Positions 42,458 to 61,871 of a stretch of 64,000 nucleotides of DNA are shown here, piece after piece. Within the stretch, counting starts at the first letter, position 1. Each line of letters opens with the position of its first letter. The notes below the pieces were generated by a model. The model made no database searches. It saw only the letters and a list, made by a program, of their open reading frames with translations, and had not been told where the DNA came from. Position numbers and translations under genes: made by a program. Source of the stretch: an uncultured Oscillospiraceae bacterium (GTDB taxonomy: Bacteria > Bacillota > Clostridia > Oscillospirales > Oscillospiraceae); NCBI GenBank assembly GCA_947624985.1, contig CANQMO010000006.1:42238-106237 (forward strand). The letters run 5' to 3'.

Positions 42458-42479
42458 AGGCGTGCTTGAAAAATGAATC

Positions 42480-42655
42480 GCTTGAACAGAGGCGCGGTTT
42501 TCATCAGTACCCGCTCCCAAGGCCAGACAGCCGGGACCGGGAAAAGGGAACGCCGCCGAAGTGGCGGGAGAGTGTCTGATCTCCCTCCGCTGGGCCGTCG
42601 GAGAATATCCGCCGGACTGTCACAAAGTTTTGTGGAGCGCTGTCATGGCCGATGG
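42480..42655 (+). ncRNA. Lysine riboswitch (L-box)
   Basis: The conserved L-box core elements appear in order: AGAGGCGCGG, an AGTA segment, AAGGGAACGCCGCCGAAGTGGCGGGAGAG, the GGGCCGTCGGAGAATATCCGCCGGACTGTCAC arm, and TGGAGCGCTGTCATGG closing the basal helix. The 5' GGCGC and 3' GAGCGCT segments pair at the base. It binds free lysine, so lysine should shut off downstream genes through the terminator that follows. This points to lysine as the transporter's substrate. Confidence 0.93.
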
Positions 42656-45803: not shown

Positions 45804-47345
45804 ATGCCAATATGGTCATGGATCGTTCTGATCCTGGCGGGCCTTGCCCTGGGCTTCGGCTCGGGCACGATCTACCGCAAGCGTGTGAGCGAGCGGGAGA
45901 TAGGCTCGGCGGAGGAGGAAGCGAAGAGGATACTCAACGACGCCATAAGATCCGCGGAGAGCAAGAAACGGGAGGCCCTCCTGGAGGCAAAAGAAGAGAT
46001 ACACAAAAACCGCGCAGAATACGAGCGCGAAGTCAAGGAGAGACGAGCGGAGCTTTCCAAGCAGGAGCACCGCTTACAGCAGAAGGAAGAGCACCTGGAC
46101 AAAAAGACCGACGCCATCGATCGGAAAAACGAGCTTCTCACCAAGAAGATCTCCGAGGTGGAGGCCCAGCAGGAAGAGATCCAGAAACTCAAAAACAGCC
46201 AGCTTGAGGTGCTGGAGCGTATCTCCGGCTACAGTGCCGAGGACGCCAAGCAGCTTCTCATCGACTCTCTGGCAAGCGAGGTGACCCACGAACAGGCCGT
46301 CAAGGTACGGGAGATCGAGGCACAATTCAAGGAAGAAGCGGACCAGCGGGCCAGGGAGGTCATCGCTCTGGCCATCCAGCGCTGTGCCGCCGACCACGCC
46401 AGCGAGGTCACCGTCTCCGTGGTCAGCCTGCCCAATGACGAGATGAAGGGCCGTATCATCGGCCGCGAGGGGCGGAACATCCGCTCCATCGAAAATCTCA
46501 CCGGCGTGGACCTGATCATTGACGACACCCCGGAGGCCATCACGGTCTCCTGCTTCGACCCGGTCCGCCGGGAGGTGGCCCGGCTGGCTCTGGAGAAGCT
46601 CATCGCGGACGGACGCATCCATCCGGCCCGCATTGAGGAAATGATCGCCAAGGCCCAGAAGGAGGTCAACGCCACCATCAAGGCGGAGGGCGAGCGCGCC
46701 GTGTTCGAGACCGGTGTGCACGGCCTGCACCCGGAACTGATAAAGCTGCTGGGCCGCCAGAAATACCGCACCAGCTACGGCCAGAACGTGCTGAACCACT
46801 CCATGGAGGTGGCCCATATCTCCGGGCTCATCGCCGCGGAGCTGGGCGTGGACATCGCCACCGCCAAGCGGGCGGGGCTGCTGCATGACATCGGCAAGAG
46901 CATCGACCACGAGGTAGAGGGCAGCCACGTCACCATCGGCGTGGATATCGCCAAGAAGTACAAGGAATCCCCCGAGGTCGTCCACGCCATCCACGCCCAC
47001 CACGGGGACGTGGAGCCCCAGACGGTCATCGCCTGTATCGTCCAGGCGGCGGACGCCATCTCCGCCAGCCGCCCCGGCGCCCGGCGGGAGAACATCGAAA
47101 ACTACGTCAAGCGTCTGGAGAAGCTGGAGGAGGTATCCATGTCCTTCCCGGGTATCGACAGCTGCTATGCCATCCAGGCCGGCCGGGAGATCCGTATCAT
47201 GGTCAAGCCCGAGCAGGTCACCGAGGACCAGATGACGCTCCTGGCCCGGGACATCGCCAAGAAGATCGAGGAGGAGCTCACCTACCCCGGCCAGATCAAG
47301 GTCCATGTCCTGCGGGAGACGAAAGCGGTCGAGTACGCCAAGTAA
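45804..47345 (+). CDS. rny: Ribonuclease Y
   Basis: 513 residues. RNase Y is the membrane-anchored endonuclease that starts mRNA decay in Firmicutes. An N-terminal membrane helix (about 5-22) is followed by a long charged coiled coil (about 30-150), a KH domain ([21 protein letters not shown]) and an HD domain with [10 protein letters not shown] and [13 protein letters not shown]. Start chosen at MPIWSWI, with GGGAGGTG 12 nt upstream; an upstream GTG is possible. The last 52 bp of coding sequence before the final two codons are repeated at 61813-61864, marking the left edge of an inserted island. Confidence 0.95.
47287..47338 (+). repeat. Left direct repeat of the rny-linked island (attL-like)
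   Basis: These 52 bp in the rny 3' end are identical to 61813-61864. After the repeat the left copy ends GCCAAGTAA and the right GCAAAATAA, both coding Ala-Lys-stop. Confidence 0.9.
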
Positions 47346-47370
47346 ATGCAAAAAGAGCAAAAAGAAACGT

Positions 47371-47450
47371 AAACGATCGTCCTCCGGCACAGGAGCATTG
47401 TATCGTTTTTCACAAATGGCATGGCTCTGAGAGCCATGCCATTTTCTTTT
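47371..47450 (+). terminator. Two terminators after the rebuilt rny stop
   Basis: First, AAACGAT and ATCGTTT enclose an inner CCTCC/GGAG pair and end in TTTTT (47371-47410). Second, ATGGCATGGCTC and GAGCCATGCCAT form a perfect 12-bp stem with a TGA loop, then TTTCTTTT (47416-47450). Both would belong to the inserted DNA if integration occurred within the repeat. Confidence 0.75.
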
Positions 47451-47460
47451 GTTACAAAGA

Positions 47461-47735
47461 ACCACGGGCTATGCCCGTGGGGCCAAAAAGGTTATACCTA
47501 TGCACAGGAACAGGGAATGAGCAAGAGAGGAAATAGGGAGACGTTATAGAAAACGTGGTTCCAAAAATTTGTAGAAGTTATGAGAGCTCGCAGAGCAAAG
47601 AAAGAAAACCCCACAGCCAATCAAATTGGCTGTAGGGCATGTGTGCGCAAGAAAGAGGTATCGTAGGCCTTTAGGCCAAGCCAGTAACACCCCTTATAGG
47701 GGTGGAGCAGGCCACCCGCTATGCGGGTGGTCCTG
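47461..47735. mobile_element. Hairpin-rich element with paired terminal stem-loops (IS200/IS605-like ends)
   Basis: CCACGGGC-TAT-GCCCGTGG (47462-47480) and CCACCCGC-TAT-GCGGGTGG (47712-47730) have the same shape: 8-bp stems with TAT loops. Between them lie further stems: ACAGCCAAT-CAA-ATTGGCTGT (47613-47633), GGCCT/AGGCC (47666-47677) and CACCCC/GGGGTG (47688-47704). There is no ORF. Subterminal hairpins of this kind mark IS200/IS605 elements, so this may be a non-autonomous derivative or a structured RNA. The rest of the gap to 47831 holds another TGCGGC/GCCGCA stem. Confidence 0.45.
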
Positions 47736-47831
47736 ACTGCGGCAGTTCATGGATGGGGATCATGCCGCAATATCCTTATGCGCCGTGCTTTAGCGCTCTC
47801 GCAGAGACAATAGAAACAAGGTTTGATTAAT

Positions 47832-47869: not shown

Positions 47870-48729
47870 TATTTGTTATATTCATACTCAAACGACGCGT
47901 GGTTGGTCGTGAAGTCAAAAACCAGCTCTCCGCCGATCTCAAACCGATAGCGGGCCTTGCAGGCGGCGCTTTCATGGATAGTCCTTGACATCTCTCCTCC
48001 CACTGGTGCGTTCAGCGGATAAGACGCTTTCTCAATAAGACGCGCCATAAAAAGCTTGTCACGCTGCTTGACAGTTATCGCTTGATCGGCAATTTTCAGC
48101 GCGCTTGCGCCGAGATAGGTGGCGATCCTGTACTCCCGCCCCCGCCAAATGATCGCGCCAATAACGCCTGTGAAATGGAGCCCAAGCACCGGAATATCCG
48201 CGGCGCTCAGCATTAGCGAGCCCCCGTCGAAATGACACTGTGTCCAGATGTATTCCTTGGGAAACGACCGGCCGCGGTCACCCTCGATATATCCTGAAGC
48301 GTTGTCAAAGTTAAAAACATCACCGTTCACGCTCATTTCACCCGTGACGGAATGCATCATGCTGACGACGCTGTGGCGGCACTCCATGAACGGGACATAC
48401 CGAAACGGCCCCATTATATCATAGCGAATCGGCGTAAGCCGTCCGAAATATACCGCTCCTTCGACCGTGCAAGCGGTGTTTTTCAGTTTCATCCTTATAC
48501 CGCCCGCGTCAAAAACATTCTCCCCTATGCGCACGCCAAACTCTCGTGGGTTTTCCCGATATGCCTCATATGGAAAGTCGAATGTCCATGCGCCGCTATT
48601 GGTTATGAGCTGAACCGACGAGGAGCTTCCTTGCCCGGATTTATGCGCGGCGGGAATCACTGCTAAGGTCATGGAATCCTTCTGACACTTGAAATACCAC
48701 CCGCGAAAATGATCCACACAATCACCCAT
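47869..48729 (-). CDS. Tocopherol cyclase-like family protein
   Basis: 286 residues. The N-terminal HFRGWYFKCQK motif, the VQLIT strand and the GENVFDAGGI segment match the bacterial tocopherol-cyclase-like (PF14249-type) beta-barrel family. Bacterial members have no proven reaction, and true tocopherol synthesis is not expected here. There is no clear ribosome site before the annotated ATG, so the start is uncertain. It is the only minus-strand gene in the island and points towards the rny boundary. Confidence 0.75.
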   Translation of the reverse strand: MGDCVDHFRGWYFKCQKDSMTLAVIPAAHKSGQGSSSSVQLITNSGAWTFDFPYEAYRENPREFGVRIGENVFDAGGIRMKLKNTACTVEGAVYFGRLTPIRYDIMGPFRYVPFMECRHSVVSMMHSVTGEMSVNGDVFNFDNASGYIEGDRGRSFPKEYIWTQCHFDGGSLMLSAADIPVLGLHFTGVIGAIIWRGREYRIATYLGASALKIADQAITVKQRDKLFMARLIEKASYPLNAPVGGEMSRTIHESAACKARYRFEIGGELVFDFTTNHASFEYEYNK

Positions 48730-61812: not shown

Positions 61813-61871
61813 CCGGCCAGATCAAGGTCCATGTCCTGCGGGAGACGAAAGCGGTCGAGTACGCAAAATAA
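61813..61871 (+). pseudogene. Detached 3' end of rny (right repeat, attR-like)
   Basis: Nineteen codons of the RNase Y C-terminus ([18 protein letters not shown] and stop), without a start or upstream rny sequence. The first 52 bp equal 47287-47338. The last two codons and stop differ silently from the intact gene (GCAAAATAA). The fragment sits just before a strong terminator. Confidence 0.9.

Follow-up and report, generated by a model that had tools for sequence, protein, structure and literature searches.

A non-autonomous IS200-type element and its association with terminator-like hairpins in an uncultured Oscillospiraceae bacterium

Sequence comparison and folding analysis of a 64,000-nucleotide stretch of DNA (hereafter, the window) from an uncultured Oscillospiraceae bacterium indicate that a hairpin-rich stretch downstream of the rny gene is a new non-autonomous IS200-type element, or MITE. 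The explanation that accounts best for the observations taken together, and which appears very probable, is that of an IS200-group MITE that is mobilized in trans by a Y1 transposase (TnpA) and targets a terminator-like hairpin followed by TTG(T). The wider proposition is that IS200-group Y1 transposases pick their targets by structure, with the terminator hairpin serving as a surrogate right end and joining occurring ~9 nt 3' of it at TTG(T); the chances for and against this proposition seem evenly balanced.

The first-pass annotation had described two matched stem-loops with perfect 8-bp CCAC...GTGG stems and TAT loops, 250 bp apart, enclosing further perfect stems and no open reading frame (ORF). 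All of this was recovered: the enclosed perfect stems have 9, 4 and 7 bp, in addition to a small one (Table 1), and no ORF of at least 60 amino acids lies within 47466-47789. The unit is slightly larger than previously described, extending over about 47452-47738, plus the TTG target at 47449-47451. When the 290-nt stretch is folded as single-stranded DNA, it reaches -56.2 kcal/mol compared with a shuffle mean of -32.5 kcal/mol (z = -7.2), and none of 200 dinucleotide shuffles folded as well.

Table 1. Structural features of the element and of its insertion site (positions in the window)
Feature	Position	Strand	Remark
Host terminator-like hairpin GGCATGGCTCTGAGAGCCATGCC, 10 bp, then ATTTTCTTTTG	47418..47440	+	Downstream of rny; putative target structure
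TTG, putative left cleavage/target site, cut 3' of G	47449..47451	+	Position deduced by comparison
Non-autonomous IS200-type element (MITE), 287 bp	47452..47738	+	Six near-identical copies in the genome
Left-end hairpin CCACGGGC-TAT-GCCCGTGG	47462..47480	+	Identical hairpin in both tnpA-carrying elements
Small left-end stem AGGT-TAT-ACCT	47489..47499	+	AGGC-TAT-GCCT in the tnpA elements
Interior 9-bp stem ACAGCCAAT-CAA-ATTGGCTGT	47613..47633	+	Within the MITE-specific core
Right-end stem GGCC-TTTA-GGCC	47666..47677	+	Position common to the tnpA elements
Right-end stem CACCCCT-TAT-AGGGGTG	47688..47704	+	Position common to the tnpA elements
Right-end hairpin CCACCCGC-TAT-GCGGGTGG	47712..47730	+	
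TCCTGACT, spacer and putative right cleavage site	47731..47738	+	Similarity of the copies ends exactly after T47738

The suggestion that the stretch is a non-autonomous relative of IS200/IS605 elements is borne out by six dispersed copies, by ends held in common with two Y1_Tnp elements, by uninterrupted sites in sister species and by covarying hairpins. The source genome (2.28 Mb, 44 contigs, 88% complete) contains the 293 bp around the feature at five more places (C4, C22, C23, C25 and C29) with 99-100% identity, so that the search of genomes for multiple copies yielded six copies with conserved ends, all in the element's own genome, rather than a single-copy sequence. When the six are aligned together with their flanks, identity begins with TTGTTACAAAG and ends exactly after ...GGTCCTGACT, and the sequences outside are unrelated. 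Six copies with different flanks indicate a mobile repeat and not a single-copy RNA. Among the 149 genomes searched, the full MITE was limited to the source genome and was absent from all 148 relatives, which have no more than the left ~43 nt and the right 48-72 nt in common with it; within the genus, most right-end matches stop at the right base of the MITE (T47738). Collections of plasmid, phage and viral sequences contained no copy of the MITE, the sole match being a 57-nt right end on one plasmid.

For two of the copies, the joined flanks align without interruption in other genomes, namely in G010 and G002 for the C4 copy and in G010, G017, G014 and G012 for the C23 copy, and the hairpin is present at the insertion point in these empty sites. 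The genomes in question represent sister species with ~73-81% DNA identity and not strains, and they do not fix the left cut to the base; read as empty sites, these loci prove insertion. No target-site duplication is visible, the left flanks ending in TTG and the right flanks being variable.

It should be noted that in G006 and G012 many contigs end inside insertion sequence copies (L153-L163, L019-L020, L033-L034, L039-L040 and L044-L045); because high-copy elements break the assembly, the copy numbers in these MAGs are underestimates. In addition, solitary left-end palindromes for which no right end was seen occur in four genomes (L167 in G030, L168 in G013, L113 in G020 and L166 in G034), with TTG at one flank and CAA at the opposite flank in G013, G020 and G030, and partly so in G034. 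These are possibly REP-like remnants or minimal elements.

Two relatives of ~750 bp with the same ends reside in the genome (C13:74499-75239 and C6:12388-13128, coordinates from the left hairpin). The C6 relative contains an intact 161-aa ORF (C6:12509-12991) that encodes a Y1_Tnp protein (PF01797, E = 3e-41) and resembles solved IS200/IS605 transposases in the PDB, ISHp608 TnpA included; the protein has an HUH motif at residues 65-67, and its predicted catalytic tyrosine, read by position only, is Y129. The tnpA gene of the C13 relative (L009, C13:74200-75500) has one in-frame TGA stop, and these two were the only Y1_Tnp genes found in the 88%-complete genome, one of them intact. The partner elements measure 741 bp from the left hairpin to the right cut and contain tnpA only, without the tnpB that marks the IS605 group. 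The ends of the MITE are 88% identical to theirs over the left 42-43 nt and 92-94% identical over the right 48 nt, and the small left-end stem differs from theirs by a two-sided, compensatory change (AGGT/ACCT versus AGGC/GCCT). Covariation of the end hairpins, which the first-pass annotation had named as a check, was indeed observed across relatives: the right hairpin has 17 two-sided changes and no broken cells in 14 sequences, in the selection of which the inner pairs played no part, and for the left hairpin 38 sequences gave 70 two-sided changes, a count that is biased since a palindrome search had supplied the left-end hairpins at the 52 GTDB loci, so that these hairpins were picked as palindromes.

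The MITE seems to be moved by an IS200-type transposase, which would act in trans. Between TTG and the left hairpin, the MITE has TTACAAAG where the resident insertion sequence copies have GCAACCGAC and GAAACAGGC, and therefore the mobilizer may be a lost or unsequenced relative; across sublineages these guide-like bases vary, and no consistent scheme for their putative pairing with the cut sites emerged. An origin of the MITE core simply by deletion of tnpA was considered and rejected, as the best tblastn match (E = 0.009, minus strand, 23 aa) was not convincing; 14 nt of the core also match left-end sequence, but with E = 0.34 this was ignored. A congener, G029, harbors a 267-bp internal-deletion derivative in which nearly all of tnpA is gone (L165, G029:C38:17400-18400, left hairpin at 462); this is an independently formed non-autonomous element.

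All six copies of the MITE and both tnpA copies are located directly 3' of a GC-rich hairpin, with a left flank that ends in TTG, and in most cases a T-rich stretch follows the hairpin. The survey of targets was extended from the source genome to congeners, to 52 loci in GTDB genomes found via TnpA (70-82% identity), and to further copies in Staphylococcus, Vescimonas, a deltaproteobacterium, Fusobacterium, E. coli and a Salmonella plasmid. A hairpin of -10 kcal/mol or lower was present in 72 of the 74 distinct left flanks versus 21 of the 49 right flanks (Fisher p = 3e-12), against a background of 406 of 1410 random windows (29%). When a 36-nt window was moved along 87 left flanks, the median folding energy peaked at -17 kcal/mol in the window ending 17 nt before the left hairpin, and was -2.8 to -3.1 kcal/mol at 40-50 nt upstream, so that the signal falls off within ~25 nt. 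The distance from the hairpin foot (the last GC pair) to the cut has a median of 9 nt (interquartile range 8-11, n = 61), which resembles the spacing of 8 nt between hairpin and cut at the right end of the element itself.

T accounts for 56-71% of the bases at positions -9 to -5 before the cut and for 71% of the bases that directly follow TTG (TTG itself was used as the anchor). TTG is found at the 63 analyzed left junctions of the main subgroup, which were chosen for a TTG at a distance of 8-14 nt from the left-end hairpin. With a strict rule-based terminator detector, 51 of 74 left flanks, 5 of 49 right flanks and 103 of 940 random windows scored; as it overlooked terminators that could be recognized by eye, folding energy and the GC-foot measure were used instead. 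The left-flank hairpin was present in all three E. coli copies and in five of the six Fusobacterium copies. A few copies in the survey lack a good hairpin (L245 and L268) or have a distant or atypical one (L157 and L160).

The main alternative is that the element is an IS200/IS605 MITE of the ordinary kind that recognizes only a short sequence (TTG in T-rich surroundings), and that the association with terminators reflects survivorship, since insertions immediately after genes are the least damaging. Terminators are rich in T, an insertion just behind one does no harm, and published descriptions of IS608 and ISDra2 place their insertions 3' of a guide-chosen tetra- or pentanucleotide (PMC7290912, PMC2806898). 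However, the hairpin signal is limited to one side and, there, to a few nucleotides at the junction, and selection for harmless positions would fix neither the one-sidedness nor the spacing. Furthermore, the IS200 copy L195 immediately follows the right-end hairpin of a second IS200 copy and not a gene terminator. This alternative is thus judged unlikely. For the C23 copy, the neighboring gene is on the minus strand and would use the other side of the hairpin, with the T tract on the minus strand; hence, the hairpin and TTG on the strand of the element seem to matter, and not the direction of transcription.

The negative control was a distant IS605-type element with tnpB, the TnpA of which is 29% identical and of which one Deferribacter megaplasmid carries 18 copies or fragments. 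None of the 18 left flanks had a hairpin of -8 kcal/mol or lower, and the median was -1.2 kcal/mol; the terminator habit is therefore not general to Y1 elements. The Deferribacter replicon is AT-rich, but so is Fusobacterium, the copies of which nevertheless have the hairpin. Two copies of ISEfa4 were readable, and neither had a left-flank hairpin.

Targeting of terminator-like hairpins by an IS200-type MITE could proceed as follows. The MITE consists of two IS200-type ends without a transposase gene and would be mobilized by a Y1 (HUH) TnpA such as that encoded at C6:12509-12991. Movement would most likely occur as single-stranded DNA, by analogy with the chemistry of IS608, with TnpA binding the left and right hairpins and cleaving after TTG at the left end and after TCCTGACT at the right end. 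The excised circle would then be joined to another single-stranded target 3' of a TTG, and no target duplication would arise. In the clade of the MITE, this target would be more than a short sequence, namely a terminator-like hairpin with a T-rich stretch that ends in TTG(T), the cut being placed ~9 nt past the hairpin foot. The right end of the element itself has this arrangement (hairpin, 8 nt, cut), and the host hairpin is therefore probably recognized by TnpA in place of a right end. The comparisons show past mobility with copies and empty sites, the shared ends, the transposase family and a one-sided target structure at a fixed spacing; mobilization in trans, the exact cut positions, including the cut after TTG, single-strand excision and joining as in IS608, and the surrogate-end step are inferred.

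The first-pass annotation had also raised the possibility of a structured RNA. Such an RNA, similar to a small RNA or a riboswitch, would have been spread by duplication, and its hairpins would act in RNA. The RNA folding of the stretch (z = -5.4 relative to dinucleotide shuffles) and its location just downstream of a gene are compatible with this reading, and the 5' RNA of the IS200 tnpA is a known small RNA in Salmonella (PMC12594629). However, no Rfam family reached the gathering score over the stretch, the lysine riboswitch being the only match in the whole window, and the copies have unrelated neighbors, ends that match those of transposase-bearing elements, and a similarity that ends exactly at the right cut; moreover, none of the 148 relatives searched yielded the full MITE. 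A functional RNA is therefore not needed as an explanation and is highly improbable. Equally remote is the movement of the copies by another integrase-type system or their origin as recombination products (similar to integron cassettes or REP/RAYT), for although the hairpin ends, the extragenic position and the solitary palindromes of G013, G020, G030 and, in part, G034 recall REP sequences, the copies in the source genome have two distinct asymmetric ends in a layout identical to that of the tnpA-bearing IS200 elements, and the resident TnpA is of the short IS200 type (741-bp hairpin-to-end unit).

Although few insertion sequences are as widespread as IS200, it is described as hardly mobile. 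The group (IS200, IS1541) agrees with the system of the IS200-type MITE and its partners in the ~750-bp tnpA-only partner, the Y1_Tnp domain, the perfect-palindrome end hairpins and the lack of a visible target duplication, and the nearest named element encountered was ISSep3, the TnpA of which is ~75% identical over 155 aa. The MITE differs in the lack of tnpA and in its terminator-hairpin target, which is undescribed for the group in the openly licensed literature. In that literature, neither a report of terminator targeting by IS200 nor a stated target rule for the group was found, which is weak evidence of absence as most subscription journals lie outside this scope. PATEs and similar MITEs consist of IS200/IS605 ends around unrelated or deleted DNA and occur in several copies. 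The present family is like them in its IS200/IS605 ends and several copies, but is species-specific among the 149 genomes and has its own core and the terminator target.

IS608 and ISDra2 are of the IS605 type (tnpA plus tnpB) and have in common with the MITE system a Y1 transposase, hairpin ends and insertion 3' of a T-rich short motif, but their described target, like that given for IS200/IS605 elements in the openly licensed papers, is a tetra- or pentanucleotide only (PMC7290912, PMC2806898, PMC4227781). REP sequences and their TnpA-REP (RAYT) proteins are similar in that a Y1 enzyme with kinship to IS200/IS605 acts on hairpins (PMC8266576); however, the REP system combines short single palindromes, which contain a GTAG motif, with a domesticated TnpA, whereas the MITE has two distinct ends around 287 bp. 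A habit of targeting terminators is already known for group IIC introns, which insert just 3' of Rho-independent terminator stem-loops, with attC-type members at TTGT/T (PMC7923331). These introns are reverse-splicing RNA elements with a reverse transcriptase and have no kinship with the MITE in sequence or chemistry, and therefore the choice of target is convergent. A large survey has reported that IS200 is over-represented between convergent gene ends (PMC9208149), which fits terminator targeting.

If true, the rule of terminator hairpin, T tract and TTG would have several consequences: it would explain why IS200 lies outside genes and costs its host little, read-through at the ends of operons would be expected to be affected, it would make target choice by Y1 transposases directly testable, and it would mean that the safe-site strategy of an IS200 clade converges with that of the unrelated group IIC introns on the same site.

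In the neighborhood of the MITE, the 3' end of rny (RNase Y, TIGR03319) at 47300-47362 is repeated at 61817-61871 with ~90% identity, and the two repeats flank a block of ~14 kb for sugar-acid utilization, with a TRAP transporter, DHDPS-type and mandelate-racemase-type enzymes, a GntR-type regulator and an AgaZ/GatZ-like protein. The native-looking terminator is the one behind the right rny copy, and this points to an insertion or a duplication at the 3' end of rny; the part that was examined revealed no integrase. The first ORF beyond the MITE (47872-48729, minus strand) has a weak Pfam match to Tocopherol_cycl (E = 8e-8). The lysine riboswitch (RF00168, 100 bits) is located at 42479-42650, upstream of an amino-acid ABC transporter-like gene pair.
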